Assembly: GCA_031257475.1 (NCBI GenBank)
Contig: JAIROP010000019.1
Span: 1-41,540, forward strand
Direction of reading: 5' to 3'
From: Holosporaceae bacterium
Lineage (GTDB): Bacteria > Pseudomonadota > Alphaproteobacteria > UBA3830
Length of the DNA: 41,540 nucleotides
Below are positions 1-19,770 of this stretch, one piece after another. The stretch's first letter is position 1, and every line of letters starts with the position of its first letter. The notes below the pieces were generated by a model. That model ran no database searches and was not told the DNA's origin. It saw only the letters and a list, made by a program, of their open reading frames with translations. A program made the position numbers and the translations under genes.

Positions 1-99
1 AATACCACTCTTCCTGAGCGCTTCGCTGCCACAAAATTTGCATATCATTATGAAAATCTCCATCTCTTAATACAAAACATAACATGTTATAACATGTAA
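1..99 (+). CDS. possible 3' end of an upstream gene, or the severed N-terminal part of the sensor kinase
   Basis: This frame is open from the first base to a TAA at 97-99 (32 codons plus stop) and reads as a plausible peptide containing LPERFAATKFAYHYENLHLL. I do not recognise the family. It overlaps the upstream-open frame of the kinase (83-193). Removing one copy of the 10-bp tandem repeat at 79-98 would place it in the kinase's frame. It is therefore either the tail of a separate gene or the N-terminal portion of the same kinase cut off by a frameshift. The peptide is short, so an open frame by chance cannot be excluded. Confidence 0.3.
   Translation, partial: NTTLPERFAATKFAYHYENLHLLIQNITCYNM
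79..98. repeat. 10-bp tandem duplication ATAACATGT(T/A)
   Basis: Two adjacent near-identical 10-base units, ATAACATGTT (79-88) and ATAACATGTA (89-98). TAACATGTTA (80-89) is also a perfect palindrome. A 10-base insertion changes the reading frame by one, and the frame upstream and the kinase frame downstream differ by exactly that amount. Confidence 0.8.
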
Positions 100-193
100 T
101 ATCTATATAGCGCAATCCCCATTTAAGAAAAAAAATAATCTAACCAAAGAAGAATTAGCATTAGCTCTATCTAGAGAAATTAGTGAAAAAAAT

Positions 194-2014
194 ATGTTGT
201 ATTCCATTATTGAGCAACTGCCAGGTCATGTATATTGGTTAAATCGAGATAATGTGTATTTAGGATGTAACAATCTTCAAGCTAAAAGATATGGTTTAAA
301 GTCAACACATGATGTTATCGGTAAAACGAACAAAGAGCTTTATCCACCAAAAGATGCAGATATAATTGAGAAAAATAATATAAAAGTCATGGAGACAGGA
401 AAGGCATTTGAAGGAGAGGAGAATTCTATAGAAGGTTTTAGTTACCTGACTCACAAAACACCGATTTATGATGCAGGAGGCAAGATCGCAGGTCTGCTCG
501 GGATTTCAATTGATATCACCGATCGTAAGCGGGCTGAAGATCTGGCAATTCAAAATAAAATCCAAACCAAATTTGGCCAACTGGCAAAGCAAGTATGTCA
601 TGATATCCGAACTCCATTACAGACTTTGAGTATGGTTTTAAAAGTTGGTGCAAAAAATCTTCCTGAAAAGGAGTACATCGCTCTGCGGGACTCCGTGAAT
701 AGTATCAAGAAAATTGTACAAGTGTTTTTAGAGTATTCACCTGAAAAAGAATCCTTCATAAATCACCAACATATTCTGGTTTCTCAAACTTTAAAAGAGA
801 TTATAGACCAGAAAGAAATTCAGTATATCGATAAAAGCGTGAAGTTTCAGTATTCATTTGATGAATCCATACGCTTCACGTTTATTTTTGGTAATGCCGG
901 GAATTTTGAGCGCATGATAAGCAACATAGTAAACAATTCAGTAGAAGCATTGGAAGAAGAAGAGGGAGTTGTAGAACTTGGTTTCTCTGTCGATGACGAT
1001 AGGGTAAAAATTACCATCAAAGATAATGGCAAAGGCATGCCACAAGAAACTGTGGAAAAGTTAATGAGAAATGAGTCTGTCTCAAGCACTAAAGAGGGAG
1101 GATATGGCATTGGGACAAGGCAAATTCAAGATGCTTTAAAAGAATTTAACGGAACGCAATTTATAGAATCAACCCAAAATGTTGGAACAAAAATCATGCT
1201 CACAATTCCAAAATCCAGTAAGTCAAAATGGGCAATAGAGCAGATAGACCTTCGCAAAGGGTGTGTTGTTGTCATTTTAGACGATGATGTACTGGTACAC
1301 AACAAGTGGAGAGATAGACTAGAAAAGTATACTCCTGATATCTCTTTGAAATTCTTTGAAAAAGCTCAGGAAACAATTGATTTTATAAATTCTCACGAGA
1401 AAAGGGAGGATATTATTTTATTATTAGATTATGAATTGAGGAACCAGGAGTTAAATGGCTTAGAGGTCATTCAAAAAAGTGATATCAAGAAATCCCAGAT
1501 TGTCCTAGTCAGCAGTATTTATGATCGCAAAGAAATACAAGACAAAGCAGTGGAGTCTGAGATAAAGATATTACCAAAGGCATTCATAGAAGATGTTTCC
1601 ATTGTTTTTTCAAGAGTAAGAGACGATAAATCATTATTGGAAAAGGTCAATGTGGTTGTATTAGACAATGAGAAGTTTTTTGCGAACTTCATCAGTGATA
1701 TTTTACGGTCTAATGGCCTTGTGGTTGACACCTATTACGATCCTCAAAGTCTAATGGAGAATCTGTCAAAATACAGCGTTGATACGAAAATAATTACTGA
1801 CAATTGCTTTGAGGGGGGAGTGAGTGGGTGTGTTTTGGCCCATCAGTTGTTTGAGAAAGGCTTTAAAAATCTCTGTGTGTTCACAGGACTTATTCAGGAG
1901 AATATGTATTTTAAATATCCTGAAGGAACCAAATTTATCGAAAAAGGCGACAATGATAGCGAAATGCGTGTTTTCTCCTGGTGTAAGATGAAGGGCGTAC
2001 TGAACGATATTTAA
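194..2014 (+). CDS. hybrid sensor histidine kinase with PAS and two receiver domains
   Basis: 606 aa from the first ATG. Domains in order: a PAS domain (about 1-110, ending in the usual DITDRKRAE linker); a dimerisation/phosphoacceptor helix with H136 in CHDIRTPL; a HATPase_c domain with an N-box (NIVNNSVEAL), G1 (DNGKGMP) and G2 (GGYGIGT); then two C-terminal receivers. Receiver 1 has D363-D365, phosphoacceptor D412 and K462. Receiver 2 starts near D491 with D536 as likely phosphoacceptor, followed by FTG and an EKG lysine. No transmembrane segment is visible, so it is probably cytosolic. ATG 194 has no clear ribosome binding site, and the frame stays open upstream to 83 without ATG, GTG or TTG. 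The upstream residues (LTKEELALALSREISEKN) look coding, so the true start may be further upstream or lost. No separate response regulator is adjacent. Confidence 0.85.
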   Translation: MLYSIIEQLPGHVYWLNRDNVYLGCNNLQAKRYGLKSTHDVIGKTNKELYPPKDADIIEKNNIKVMETGKAFEGEENSIEGFSYLTHKTPIYDAGGKIAGLLGISIDITDRKRAEDLAIQNKIQTKFGQLAKQVCHDIRTPLQTLSMVLKVGAKNLPEKEYIALRDSVNSIKKIVQVFLEYSPEKESFINHQHILVSQTLKEIIDQKEIQYIDKSVKFQYSFDESIRFTFIFGNAGNFERMISNIVNNSVEALEEEEGVVELGFSVDDDRVKITIKDNGKGMPQETVEKLMRNESVSSTKEGGYGIGTRQIQDALKEFNGTQFIESTQNVGTKIMLTIPKSSKSKWAIEQIDLRKGCVVVILDDDVLVHNKWRDRLEKYTPDISLKFFEKAQETIDFINSHEKREDIILLLDYELRNQELNGLEVIQKSDIKKSQIVLVSSIYDRKEIQDKAVESEIKILPKAFIEDVSIVFSRVRDDKSLLEKVNVVVLDNEKFFANFISDILRSNGLVVDTYYDPQSLMENLSKYSVDTKIITDNCFEGGVSGCVLAHQLFEKGFKNLCVFTGLIQENMYFKYPEGTKFIEKGDNDSEMRVFSWCKMKGVLNDI

Positions 2015-2289: not shown

Positions 2290-3783
2290 ATGGATGAGGA
2301 ACAACTAGAACAATTGAATACTTCCCAGTTGCGTGAGATTGTGCTGGCTATTTGTGCACAACATAAAAATGTGTCCAAAAATGTGGAAAGAATGGTGGTG
2401 GAGAAATCTCACAATTCGAAAGAGATGATTTCCATTATAAAAAAGGAAATTACAGCTCTAAAAAATAGAACATCCAGTTTTTTTAGTAATAAAAAAACAC
2501 AGGAAATCATAACAATGTTTGACCAACTTTGCGATTTTATTTTAAGTTTATCCGATACTGTCCCGATTGAAGCGTTTAATCTGATGAAGAATTTTTTTGA
2601 GATTCATCAGGTTTTTTTCCAAAAAAACAACTATTGCTGTGAAAAAATAAGGCCTGTTTTTCGAAATTCTTGCTTGATGTTTGGAAAAATTGCAGAGCGT
2701 GCCAATATTCCAAGCAAAGATGCTGCTAGTGTTATTTTTTCCCTATTCATTAACGATATTTCGAATTTACATTTTTCATTAATTAGCGGTTTTGCAAATA
2801 TTTTAAATGGCTCCGATTTAAGTTCGCTTAGGTCCAAGATTGTCGCCTATTACAACAGTGCTGTTTTTGAGGATGTGGCCAAACAGGAGAAAGATCTCCT
2901 CGAGATTGCATTTCAAGATAGAGGTTTTAAGGTATTAAGTGGCATGTCAAGTGAACAGTGTTTGGAATCCGCGAAAAATAAGGTAATGGCAAAAATAAGA
3001 TTGTGGTTGATGGAGATTGCAGATTGCCAAAATAACGTAGACGATTATATTGCAGCTCTGGCATTTCCAAAGGCACGGTGCAATAAAAGTCTTCAAGATT
3101 CAGAAAAGAAAGAAATAGTAAGTCGCCTGATAGCCGTTGGCAGAGGAGAGGACGCGCTGGAGTGGATACGTACGTCTAACAACTATATTTGCGGTTATCC
3201 AGAATGGCTAAAATTTGAGATTGACGCGCTGGAAATAAGCAATAAATCCTCGGAAGCTCAAGAAAAACGTTTGATTTGGTTCCAGAAAGAATTAACGTTA
3301 GATAGTTATGAAGAAGTTATCCAACATATGGATGAAAAATCTCGTGCCAAGATTAAGAAAGAATTAGTACAATGTACTGTAGCAAGCGACAAAGTCTGGC
3401 AGGCAGTAACTTTATTAGCGGAAATCGGATCTTTGGAGGAATGTTCCCTGTTAGTGAAAAAAAACGTGAATGGTCTAGAAAAGCAGTTAAAGAGTTTCGA
3501 TGCGCACGCAGTGGCAAAAGCTCTACAAAATGATTACCCGCTTAGCGCTGTACTGCTGTACAGAATGCTAGTTGTCGAAGCATTATCTGGCGGTAGCGAG
3601 TCAAAAAACGCAAATGCTGTGAAAGATTTGATATTGTGCGAGCAGCTGAGCAGCAGGGTCGTAGATTTTAATGGATTTCCGAGGCATGTAAAATATCTTG
3701 ACTTCCTCAGGCAAAGGTATAAAAAGGCAAATCGTTTTTGGGAAAAAGTAAACGCTGCAAAAAAGAAGTTAGAGAAAAAATAG
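2290..3783 (+). CDS. alpha-helical hypothetical protein, DUF6880-like
   Basis: 497 aa, almost entirely predicted helical, with no signal peptide or membrane segment. The C-terminal third resembles my memory of DUF6880 proteins: a block on alternation of A and L (DYPLSAVLLYRMLVVEALSG), then an aligned pair of short helices and a terminal motif of histidine plus a long basic segment (GFPRHVKYLDFLRQRYKKAN, then RFW). That assignment is inference. The gene ends six bases before the SWIM-SNF2 gene on the same strand, so the two are probably one operon and may act together. ATG 2290 has only a weak GGAT upstream. The function is unknown; the context suggests a scaffold or regulator for the helicase. 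Confidence 0.7.
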   Translation: MDEEQLEQLNTSQLREIVLAICAQHKNVSKNVERMVVEKSHNSKEMISIIKKEITALKNRTSSFFSNKKTQEIITMFDQLCDFILSLSDTVPIEAFNLMKNFFEIHQVFFQKNNYCCEKIRPVFRNSCLMFGKIAERANIPSKDAASVIFSLFINDISNLHFSLISGFANILNGSDLSSLRSKIVAYYNSAVFEDVAKQEKDLLEIAFQDRGFKVLSGMSSEQCLESAKNKVMAKIRLWLMEIADCQNNVDDYIAALAFPKARCNKSLQDSEKKEIVSRLIAVGRGEDALEWIRTSNNYICGYPEWLKFEIDALEISNKSSEAQEKRLIWFQKELTLDSYEEVIQHMDEKSRAKIKKELVQCTVASDKVWQAVTLLAEIGSLEECSLLVKKNVNGLEKQLKSFDAHAVAKALQNDYPLSAVLLYRMLVVEALSGGSESKNANAVKDLILCEQLSSRVVDFNGFPRHVKYLDFLRQRYKKANRFWEKVNAAKKKLEKK

Positions 3784-3789
3784 GCACCC

Positions 3790-6700
3790 GTGATTACGAG
3801 AATTTATGGAAAAACTTGGTGGGGACGAAAATGGTTAGAGGCCTTTAATGACATAGATAACGAAAACCGTCTTCCACGAGGAAAAGCCTACGCTAACAGG
3901 GGCGCGGTGTTAAGCGTAAATATTTTGGGCAATACGGTGACGGCGCGGGTTCAAGGTTCTCGAAGGACTCCCTATAAAGTTGAAATCGAATTTGAAAAAT
4001 TTACTCCTCAGCAAAGAGAAGTTTTTAAACAGTTGATAGAAAAAACGCCGTCTGTTTTATCTGCACTTATGAACAAAAGATTGCCACCGAAATTATATGA
4101 TAGTCTCAAAAGTATGAGGATCAAATTATTTCCCACTCAATGGAAGGAAATTAGAGCAAAATGTTCGTGTCCTGATTATGCAGTTCCCTGTAAGCACATC
4201 GCCGCGGTGCTTTATTTGATCTGCGACAAGATAGATAAAGATCCTTTTTTGGTGTTTGATCTTCACTATTGTTGCCTATCAACTCTTATCCAAAAATTTG
4301 ATGAATACGGAGCTACGCAAAAACCGATTCTTAATATGAACGCATTGTTTGACAATAAAAAGACTAAACTAATCTTCGACCAAAAAGTATTGGATCGGAT
4401 AGATTTGTCTAAAATACCTCTCCTAAAAACCATGACGTTTGATATTTTAAAGTCCGACGTTGTTTTTTACGAAAAAAAATTTCTAGAAAAAATGAGTCTC
4501 TTTTATGATTTGATCGGCAATGAAAAATACAATGGAGAATTATCGGAAGAAGCGTTTTTGCAAAAATTTCCAGATGTGGAGTCCTGGGGCACTTTCGAAA
4601 TATTTTTGAATGATCAGCACAAAATAACCGAAATAAATTTGGGAGTTGGAAAAAGAAAAACAGCCGCAGGCGCCGATATTAATATATTTAATCTTTTTTG
4701 CGAAATGCCAAATTCCCTGTTGTACCTATTTAATCCAAAACTGAAGTTCATGCACGTCGTTTGGCAGTTTGCGGCTAAGCTGATGAAGAGGAACGCTGTA
4801 ATTCCGCAAATATTGCAAAATGAAAAAATGGAGACTCTGATTCGGTGGATTCCAGCCATATACAATGGCGAAGTACGCAAAATTATTGATGAATTAACGC
4901 TAACATGTCCGAGAATTATAAATAGCATGAGCAATTCCTATGAACAAATATCATCTCTTTGCGCTCTGTTTGTTGCGGCTAAGAGTTCATCTGTGAATCT
5001 CTCAAGATTGCAAGGAGATGATGTTGTAGATCTTTTTTTTTCGGGAAAAGCACTTAAATTTTCTGGCTTCACCCAAAGGGAAATTCCGGGAGTTATCAAT
5101 CAATGGTTGGGCAATTTATATTTGGTAAAAAAATCACACAAACTTTGCATGGAAATTAGTGAAAGAGACTATGGTTTTCAATTGGATTTAAAGATTATTC
5201 CAGATAAACATCAGGAACCTCTTTCTTTACCGGAAGCGTTTAAAAAAATGTCTGCTTCTGCGAAATTTGAAGTTATGTCAGATATTTCCGCTCTTGCTGA
5301 CCATTTTCCCGATTTGGAAAATATAGTAGACCATGAAAAACCATTGGACATTGACTTTGCCGATTTCACCAAAATATTTCTTGATGTGTTGCCGATATTG
5401 AAGGCCATTGGCGTGCTTATCGCGCTGCCAAAAGCGTTGAGAGATGTATTTAGACCTCGACTTTCACTGAATTTGTCGGCGAAAAAGAAAATAAGTTGCC
5501 CTGAAAAGAGTTTCCTAAATCTTGAAACTTTGCTGAATTTCGACTGGACTGTGGCCATTGGAGAACAAAACATAAGCATAGAAGAATTTAGGCGCCTATT
5601 GAAAAAATCACGCGGCCTTGTTCGCTTCGCTGATTCCTATGTTTTGATGGATGAAAGGCAGATGGAGTTAATGCTGAAACAGATGAATAATCTGCCCAAA
5701 TCGTTATCGCAGGCAGAACTTCTGCAAGCTGCATTGGCGGAAGAATTTGAATCCGCTTCCTTGAAATTGGATGAACAGCTTAGCCAAATGTTTATGAACA
5801 TGAAAACCTACAAGCAGAAAATACTACCGCAAAATTTAAAGGCTCAGCTTCGTCCTTATCAGGAGAGGGGATTCAGCTGGCTAGTGCAAAATATTGACAT
5901 GGGATTTGGTAGTATTTTGGCCGATGACATGGGATTGGGAAAAACTTTGCAGGTTATCACCACAATTCTTCATATGAAAAATGAAGGAATGCTTCAAAAT
6001 GAAAAGGTTTTGGTGATAGCCCCCACGAGTTTGTTAACTAACTGGTTTCGGGAAATTGAGAAATTTACCCCAGATTTAAGACCTCTGATTTATCACGGAA
6101 ATAAAAGGGAATTAAACGGAAAATTCGATCTTGTACTTACCTCTTATGGGCTCGTCTACCGGGATAGAGCAGAATTTCAGGGGCACAGCTGGTTTTTGCT
6201 GGTGATAGATGAAGCTCAAAATATAAAAAACCCACTTGCAAAGCAAACAAAGGCGGTAAAATCCATCGCCGCGAAGTATCGCATAGCCATGAGTGGAACT
6301 CCGATCGAAAATCGCTTGTTGGAATACTGGAGTATCTTTGATTTCACCAACAAGGGTTATCTCGGAACTCAGGGTGGTTTTAGAACAAAATTTGCCATAC
6401 CAATAGAAAGAGAACGTAATAAAGAATGTCTCAGTAGATTTATTCGAATAACAAGTCCTTTTATTTTACGCCGCTGCAAGAGCGATAAAGCTATCATTGC
6501 CGATCTTCCGGAAAAAATAGAAAATAATAAATATTGCTCCCTCACAAAAGAGCAGGCAGCTATCTACCAAGAAATACTAAATTCATCTCTGAGCCAAATA
6601 GCTGAAAAAGATGGTATTGAACGCAAAGGATTGGTCCTAAAACTTATTAATTCTCTCAAACAGGTTTGCAATCATCCAGCGCAGTATGCTAAGAAGCCTA

Positions 6701-7245
6701 CTGCATTGCTAGATGAATCTGGAAAATCAAAAATGCTGGAGGAAATTCTAAGCGAAATTCATGAATTAGGAGAGAAAACCCTTATTTTTACACAGTACGT
6801 TGAAATGGGGAACATACTTGTTGATCTTTTGGAGGAAAGATTTAGGTTATCGATTCCGTTTCTAAACGGCGGATTGTTAATGGAAAAACGCGACGAAATT
6901 GTGAGTGATTTTCATGAAAATTTTCAGACTCGCATCTTAATAGTGTCACTGAAAGCCGGAGGCATCGGCTTGAACCTGACGGCGGCTAATCATGTGGTTC
7001 ACTACGATTTATGGTGGAATCCAGCAGTCGAAACCCAAGCCACCGACCGCGCCTATCGTATAGGACAGCGAAATAATGTTATGGTTTATCGATTATTAAC
7101 CACCGGAACATTCGAAGAGCGAATTGACGAAATGATCCAAAATAAGAAGGATCTTGCCAATATTGCAGTTGCAAGTGGAGAACAGTGGATTACCGAATTC
7201 AACAACAATCAGCTACGGGATTTGTTTTCATTACGTACTGCATAG
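3790..7245 (+). CDS. SWIM zinc finger-SNF2 family helicase fusion
   Basis: 1151 aa, GTG start directly after the preceding gene. The N-terminus has the typical SWIM-protein opening (YGKTWWGRKWLEAF, LPRGKAYAN, VQGSR) and a CxCxnCxH zinc ligand set at C125, C127, C134 and H136. The C-terminal half is a complete Swi2/Snf2 ATPase: Walker A DDMGLGKT near residue 713, Walker B DEAQ near 806, motif III SGTPIEN, motif V GGIGLNL, and motif VI with DRAYRIGQ near 1090. The middle (about 200-690) has no motif I can name. SNF2 enzymes translocate on double-stranded DNA and remodel or strip bound proteins; the SWIM finger would add nucleic-acid or protein binding. Bacterial SNF2 proteins occur both in housekeeping (RapA) and in defence contexts. 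This one lacks RapA-specific features and has no restriction or methylase neighbour here. Confidence 0.9.
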   Translation: MITRIYGKTWWGRKWLEAFNDIDNENRLPRGKAYANRGAVLSVNILGNTVTARVQGSRRTPYKVEIEFEKFTPQQREVFKQLIEKTPSVLSALMNKRLPPKLYDSLKSMRIKLFPTQWKEIRAKCSCPDYAVPCKHIAAVLYLICDKIDKDPFLVFDLHYCCLSTLIQKFDEYGATQKPILNMNALFDNKKTKLIFDQKVLDRIDLSKIPLLKTMTFDILKSDVVFYEKKFLEKMSLFYDLIGNEKYNGELSEEAFLQKFPDVESWGTFEIFLNDQHKITEINLGVGKRKTAAGADINIFNLFCEMPNSLLYLFNPKLKFMHVVWQFAAKLMKRNAVIPQILQNEKMETLIRWIPAIYNGEVRKIIDELTLTCPRIINSMSNSYEQISSLCALFVAAKSSSVNLSRLQGDDVVDLFFSGKALKFSGFTQREIPGVINQWLGNLYLVKKSHKLCMEISERDYGFQLDLKIIPDKHQEPLSLPEAFKKMSASAKFEVMSDISALADHFPDLENIVDHEKPLDIDFADFTKIFLDVLPILKAIGVLIALPKALRDVFRPRLSLNLSAKKKISCPEKSFLNLETLLNFDWTVAIGEQNISIEEFRRLLKKSRGLVRFADSYVLMDERQMELMLKQMNNLPKSLSQAELLQAALAEEFESASLKLDEQLSQMFMNMKTYKQKILPQNLKAQLRPYQERGFSWLVQNIDMGFGSILADDMGLGKTLQVITTILHMKNEGMLQNEKVLVIAPTSLLTNWFREIEKFTPDLRPLIYHGNKRELNGKFDLVLTSYGLVYRDRAEFQGHSWFLLVIDEAQNIKNPLAKQTKAVKSIAAKYRIAMSGTPIENRLLEYWSIFDFTNKGYLGTQGGFRTKFAIPIERERNKECLSRFIRITSPFILRRCKSDKAIIADLPEKIENNKYCSLTKEQAAIYQEILNSSLSQIAEKDGIERKGLVLKLINSLKQVCNHPAQYAKKPTALLDESGKSKMLEEILSEIHELGEKTLIFTQYVEMGNILVDLLEERFRLSIPFLNGGLLMEKRDEIVSDFHENFQTRILIVSLKAGGIGLNLTAANHVVHYDLWWNPAVETQATDRAYRIGQRNNVMVYRLLTTGTFEERIDEMIQNKKDLANIAVASGEQWITEFNNNQLRDLFSLRTA

Positions 7246-18822: not shown

Positions 18823-19770
18823 GTGACAAATCCGATGTATAGGGCGGAAGAGAAGGTTATTTCTTGGCTCGTAGGGATAGCGAAAAAAATCAGTGGGCAC
18901 AATCTTTTGATTGCCATACCGTTCACCTGGATATTTCTCTTTTTCATTTGCCCTTGTTTGATTCTGATAGAGATAAGCCTTTCCGAAAGTTTGATAGCAT
19001 CTCCGCCATACACTTCAATGGTTGAATGGTTGTCTGGACACATGCTGCAAATCCGCATGAATCTCGGTAACTATCTTGTCCTATTTACTGATGAAATGTA
19101 CATTCGCGGATTTATCACATCTGTATTTATTGCAGGCATGTCTACCGCCTGCTGTTTGTTAATTGGTTTTCCGATGGCCTATGCTATTGCGCGAACCCCG
19201 GAACGCTTACGAAATATTTTTCTTATGCTGGTTGTGCTACCATTCTGGACGTCATTTCTGATAAGAGTCTATGCCTGGATTATGCTGCTGAGTCCTGGTG
19301 GCTTTATTAACTCTTTGCTGATGAAATATAACATTATTGAAACTCCACTGCAGCTGATGAACAATTCTTTCGCAGCCTGCATCGGTATCATTTATGCCTA
19401 TCTGCCTTTCATGATTTTTCCGCTCTACAATGCAATTGAAAAAATAGACTACGCGCTTATAGAAGCTGCCTATGATCTTGGCTGTTCTCCCATGAAGGCC
19501 TTTTTTTCCATAGTGGTACCACTATCTGCACCGGGAATCTTTGCGGGATCTGCTCTGGTGTTCGTCCCTGCCATTGGGGAATTCGTCATTCCAGAGCTTC
19601 TGGGCGGTGCGCAAACATTGACCATCGGACGGTTGGTTTGGAATGAATTTTTTGGAAATATGTCGTGGCCAACTGCAGCCTCATTATCAATTGTATTGCT
19701 GATTTTTGTGGTCTTTCCAATAGTGCTAGTCCAGGGACACAGAGAAACAAAATTTTTATCGAGGAATTAG
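18823..19770 (+). CDS. potB: ABC transporter permease, PotB/PotH type
   Basis: 315 aa with six predicted membrane segments and the cytoplasmic EAA loop (EAAYDLGCSPMKAFFSIVVP) that docks on the ATPase. The periplasmic stretch after the first segment and GFPMAYAIARTP match the spermidine/putrescine permease PotB. GTG 18823 has GAGAGG upstream; ATG 18835 is the alternative. potC follows by eight bases. The ATPase (potA) and substrate-binding protein (potD) are not in the window, so the substrate, polyamine or another cation, is inferred from family only. Confidence 0.85.
   Translation: MTNPMYRAEEKVISWLVGIAKKISGHNLLIAIPFTWIFLFFICPCLILIEISLSESLIASPPYTSMVEWLSGHMLQIRMNLGNYLVLFTDEMYIRGFITSVFIAGMSTACCLLIGFPMAYAIARTPERLRNIFLMLVVLPFWTSFLIRVYAWIMLLSPGGFINSLLMKYNIIETPLQLMNNSFAACIGIIYAYLPFMIFPLYNAIEKIDYALIEAAYDLGCSPMKAFFSIVVPLSAPGIFAGSALVFVPAIGEFVIPELLGGAQTLTIGRLVWNEFFGNMSWPTAASLSIVLLIFVVFPIVLVQGHRETKFLSRN

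Follow-up and report, generated by a model that had tools for sequence, protein, structure and literature searches.

The window, by which we mean the whole 41,540-nucleotide stretch analysed here, is contig C39 of a 920,616-base, 42-contig Holosporaceae genome, and it starts at a contig edge. Its first gene is the 3' part of a split sensor-kinase gene (122 to 2014, plus strand), the break being spanned by homologues and paralogues in one open reading frame. Encoded on the same strand are a PAS domain (PAS_4, 212 to 532, Pfam E 1e-11), a HisKA-like region (578 to 739) with an H-box, HDIRTP, whose His codon lies at 599 to 601, a HATPase_c domain (902 to 1213, Pfam E 4e-16), and a receiver (1652 to 1861). 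HATPase_c and Response_reg are both above the Pfam cut-off and HisKA is below it, and together with the H-box they identify the product as a hybrid sensor histidine kinase. A scan of the genome's contigs with peptide patterns drawn from the kinase part found no relatives, the patterns being too specific. Downstream of the kinase, at 2290 to 7245, lie a DUF6880 protein gene and, 7 bp later, a SWIM/SNF2 helicase gene. As a preliminary description of this sequence had observed, the kinase frame is open from position 83 and its first conventional start codon is the ATG at 194. The residues upstream of that codon, which that description had found coding in appearance, are coding from about position 122 on, and the 5' end of the frame is indeed broken, as it had suggested.

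That description proposed, as the possible cause of the break, a 10-bp tandem duplication at 79 to 98, placed where two open frames meet, which would either have recently inactivated the kinase gene or switch it reversibly by slipped-strand mispairing. Two 10-base units do exist there (ATAACATGTT at 79 to 88 and ATAACATGTA at 89 to 98), but they are not exact copies, being 9/10 identical with a single mismatch, and they enclose a perfect 16-bp palindrome (ACATGTTATAACATGT, 82 to 97) that takes up most of their length. The window holds one other perfect 16-bp palindrome, at 19510 to 19525, and no further one. The 41.5-kb window has four separate sites with tandem 10-mers of at least 9/10 identity, which makes a single one unremarkable and, taken alone, weak evidence. 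Frame 1 is indeed open from base 1 to the TAA at 97 to 99 (translation NTTLPERFAATKFAYHYENLHLLIQNITCYNM, then stop), and deleting 10 bases would join it to the kinase frame. It is open, however, because it is antisense to the start of a transposase gene: bases 1 to 48 carry on the minus strand the first 16 codons of an IS1-type transposase, MICKFCGSEALRKSGI, as judged from translation and from N-terminal ORFs in related copies at C19, C15, and C3. The frame-1 peptide is therefore not kinase sequence, and the repeat does not mark a meeting of coding frames; it belongs to the leader part of an insertion sequence (IS) end, 21 bp before the true junction at 119/120.

Bases 1 to 119 recur at the ends of two other contigs, C6 (100% over 117 bp) and C7 (98%), with different host DNA beside each and no kinase nearby, and the repeat is unchanged in all three copies of this IS end. 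Since the same repeat occurs at C6 and C7 without a kinase, it is a fixed feature of the IS end, neither a recent inactivating duplication nor a locus-specific switch; a slipped-strand switch, in which the repeat would be particular to the locus and would lie in the switched coding frame, is neither needed nor supported here. In the second IS subfamily of this genome, a single ATAACATG unit occupies the repeat position.

Judged by sequence, bases 1 to 119 are the transposase 5' side of an IS1-family element on the minus strand, cut by the contig edge, the family being assigned largely from related copies elsewhere in this genome. The terminal inverted repeat, at 100 to 119 (GGGATTGCGCTATATAGATA on the minus strand), is 20 bp long and identical at both end types: on C5 and C2 the opposite end of the IS starts with the same 20 bases. 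These opposite ends of the same subfamily match DDE_Tnp_IS1 below the curated cut-off because only its last 30 positions are present. The related copies at C3, C15, and C19 continue the transposase N-terminal ORF. The C3 copy is above the cut-off for Pfam DDE_Tnp_IS1 (PF03400) and matches NCBIfam transpos_IS1 with E 1.8e-22 and 80 bits, below the 100-bit cut-off because it is split in two ORFs; both the InsA-type zinc ribbon and the IS1 DDE domain were found on this copy, and the ends of the window subfamily match them partly. A related full-length copy at C19 measures about 0.78 kb, and the copy at the window site itself is unassembled. Target duplications in the IS1 family are about 8 to 9 bp long; the one found here, CATTTAAG, is exactly 8 bp.

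The window starts inside the IS because the element's many copies interrupt the assembly. About 16 contig ends of this genome carry IS1-family copies, which fall into at least two subfamilies (the IS-bearing ends are on C2, C3, C5, C6, C7, C9, C12, C13, C15, C35, C36, C37, C39, and C41), and much of its fragmentation can be attributed to them. IS stubs of 116 to 119 bp occur at several contig ends, and contig names in sister MAGs carry k119, suggesting that the assembler halted after a single k-mer of the IS repeat. A different repeat, around AAACACACTGYCATTGATAAAT, borders several of the IS copies, at the start of C2, the end of C3, the end of C37, and the start of C9.

Host DNA starts at 120, and its first eight bases (120 to 127) are CATTTAAG. 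Full-length paralogues of the window kinase at C14, C17, and C21 have about 270 extra N-terminal residues, and a genome search with the paralogue N-terminal region retrieved a fourth copy of that region, which lies at C5:39830-40633 and shares 69% identity with the C17 paralogue. The C5 ORF breaks off at the end of its contig, which carries the opposite end of the same IS subfamily, preceded by the same 8 bases. With a slash marking the border between host and IS, the junctions read ...AGTACATTTAAG/GGGATTGCGC at C5 and GCGCAATCCC/CATTTAAGAAA in the window, and the host sequence common to the two flanks is exactly these 8 bp. CATTTAAG is absent from the other IS-bearing contig ends examined, and no second pair of ends linked by a target duplication was seen among them. 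When the flanks are joined over one CATTTAAG copy, a single stop-free frame of about 904 codons, counted from the GTG used, results, and its match to intact paralogues and homologues continues through the break. The linker in this alignment is ISTFKKKNNL, with FKK conserved in several homologues, and eight homologous loci (L088, L090, L094, and L096-L100) show an overlap of exactly 6 nt between the two query halves, corresponding to the duplicated TTT AAG codons. The front half at C5 now ends after six IS-derived codons, GIALYR, and a stop. An IS1-family insertion has thus almost certainly split a hybrid sensor-kinase gene and duplicated 8 bp of target, leaving the front half on C5 and the back half in the window. 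The C5 and C39 ends, on separate contigs with the IS copy unassembled, would then border one and the same IS copy.

Other explanations for this arrangement are far less probable. It is quite unlikely that the assembler misjoined an IS stub to an intact kinase gene, or that the insertion is present in only part of the sampled population: the window does start at a contig edge, and the recurring stub length, read beside the k119 names, looks set by the assembler, but a chimeric join would not yield a matching 8-bp duplication flanking the correct termini of one IS subfamily in the right orientation. Very little probability attaches to the idea that the IS merely lies upstream of a short kinase naturally starting at the ATG at 194, the C5 fragment being an unrelated broken paralogue. 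Whether homologues begin at that codon has a mixed answer, since most extend about 270 aa upstream of it and a few short PAS kinases in relatives, without the N-terminal domain (L045, L054, and L055), start just before the PAS domain; the window kinase also has no other break. Against a natural start, the residues encoded by 122 to 193 align with the linker of full-length homologues, FKK included, and the C5 fragment runs into the opposite IS end in the right frame and with an identical 8-bp duplication. The 10-bp duplication or switch, already refuted by the C6 and C7 copies and by the C5 half, where the true kinase N-terminus lies, has next to no chance of being correct.

Under the insertion reading, an IS1-family element would have jumped into the linker between an N-terminal domain of about 270 aa and the PAS-HisKA-HATPase-receiver part, duplicating CATTTAAG as it did so. 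The back half, now the window ORF, would be without its own start and presumably without a promoter, and would probably be silent or poorly expressed unless driven from the ATG at 194; a sequence scan of positions 1 to 400 for an outward promoter from the IS revealed no plus-strand promoter-like site. A working short kinase from the window ORF is possible on sequence grounds, given the short homologues that start just before the PAS domain. The three further, intact copies of this gene type in the genome may buffer the loss of the split one. In-frame stops are present in several kinase relatives (G001, G003, G004, G022, G030, G031, G036, and G038), so that the expanded family seems to decay often. 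The insertion of an IS into a kinase gene is an ordinary event; the gene family that it exposed is worth follow-up.

Searches of Pfam and NCBIfam with the N-terminal domain gave no match, either to the cyclodipeptide synthase (CDPS) models PF16715 and TIGR04539 or to any other. Its profile drew only a chance-level match to TcpK in a sequence search of the PDB (E 0.078), and hhalign comparison with four true CDPSs gave no signal (probability 0.5%, with both alignments shallow at Neff 1.9-2.6). A fold model was computed for the homologue L089 from 22 sequences (pLDDT 90.1, pTM 0.87), and all 36 of its PDB matches at E<=1e-3 are CDPSs. The best is the Fluoribacter dumoffii enzyme (2.4e-8; TM 0.61 by query, 0.72 by target), and tyrosyl-tRNA synthetases come next after the CDPSs, with probability near 0.9. 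A search of a viral fold library gave two CDPSs and otherwise nothing useful. By spacing, the domain has an invariant S35, Y174, and E178 that would correspond to the catalytic S37, Y178, and E182 of AlbC, and a histidine stands at the fourth catalytic place (AlbC Y202). Because the profile comparison failed, the case for homology to CDPSs rests on the predicted fold, on position, and on a Ser/Tyr/Glu spacing resembling AlbC Ser37/Tyr178/Glu182, which together suggest such a relationship. Roles of AlbC Ser37 and Glu182 in CDPS catalysis have been described (PMC12945691).

The argument from position draws on true CDPS genes. Genes matching PF16715 occur at four sites in the family, each fused to a relative of the window kinase (G016:C22, L116; G039:C2, L121) or directly upstream of one (G001:C62, L117; G039:C92, L118). 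A sample of 385 genomes from the class contained a single further CDPS gene (G069:C2, L122), again directly upstream of a PAS kinase. Thus, every one of the five true CDPS genes from the alphaproteobacterial genomes searched is either joined to a PAS histidine kinase gene or its immediate neighbour, and since they sit before related kinases, the divergent N-terminal domain occupies the place of a true CDPS. On a Legionella lytica plasmid, pLlyPCM2298_1 (L129), the gene for a PAS-HisKA-HATPase-receiver-Hpt protein starts within a CDPS gene. The neighbours are different for the CDPS genes examined on a Priestia and a Staphylococcus plasmid, which adjoin cytochrome P450s, and for a Streptomyces CDPS gene, which adjoins a metal-transport ATPase. 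A phylum-wide CDPS search of 398 genomes gave no match, but its controls were silent too, making it uninformative.

A scan with the N-terminal domain located 28 loci, in MAGs labelled Holosporaceae/Holosporales, other Alphaproteobacteria, and Endomicrobium/Endomicrobiellum, and at the majority of these the domain runs directly in frame into a PAS kinase. The Endomicrobium/Endomicrobiellum loci (L090, L092, L093, L095, L096, L103, L106-L111, and L113-L115) belong to a different phylum. Many of these copies sit at contig ends, so both horizontal transfer and mis-binning are possible. Gene transfer from termite-gut Alphaproteobacteria to Endomicrobium/Endomicrobiellum has been reported (PMC11257099).

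The CDPS-fold domain may make or sense an aminoacyl-tRNA-derived ligand that sets kinase output, and the module would in this way couple a CDPS-type activity, or the sensing derivative of one, to the kinase. Tentatively, we propose a family in protist-associated bacteria, as yet undescribed, in which a CDPS-fold domain is fused to or placed beside a PAS hybrid kinase; as synthase and receptor would then form one module, the kinase could report cyclodipeptide or aminoacyl-tRNA supply. Cyclodipeptides have been described as signals, and one review names orphan LuxR proteins as the receptors (PMC13220807). No description of CDPS-kinase fusions was found among open-licence papers, and the family is apparently undescribed, although coverage by such papers is partial, so that their silence speaks only weakly for novelty. 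A CDPS-kinase pair or fusion that recurs would offer a tangible synthase-receptor couple, linked genetically and open to testing. The locus is also a recorded case of a kinase cut off from its N-terminal module by an insertion, both halves of the gene having been recovered, and it illustrates how a contig edge that falls within a mobile element can mimic a phase switch.

Comparison with known systems places these findings as follows. With two-component genes that are phase-variable by slipped-strand mispairing, the locus has in common a short direct repeat near a broken frame; here, however, the repeat is part of the IS and recurs unaltered in its other copies. From the IS1 family (InsA/InsB', DDE_Tnp_IS1) the element shows no essential difference, having across its related copies a zinc-ribbon N-terminus, a DDE_Tnp_IS1 C-terminus, inverted termini, an 8-bp duplication, and a length of about 0.78 kb (C19 copy), with termini of its own (GGGATTGCG...) and two subfamilies in this genome. 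The N-terminal domain resembles CDPSs (PF16715; nearest folds 5OCD of F. dumoffii, 5MLQ of Nocardia brasiliensis, and 5MLP of Rickettsiella grylli) in its predicted fold and its similarly spaced invariant Ser, Tyr, and Glu, and it holds the position before the kinase that true CDPSs hold in relatives; it differs from them in being fused to a kinase and in having no sequence similarity detectable by Pfam, NCBIfam, or hhalign. A parallel in arrangement is the L. lytica pair, in which a CDPS likewise comes before a PAS hybrid kinase whose kinase part is 28% identical to that of the window, whereas there the two are separate genes, the synthase is a true PF16715 CDPS, and the kinase has an added Hpt domain.
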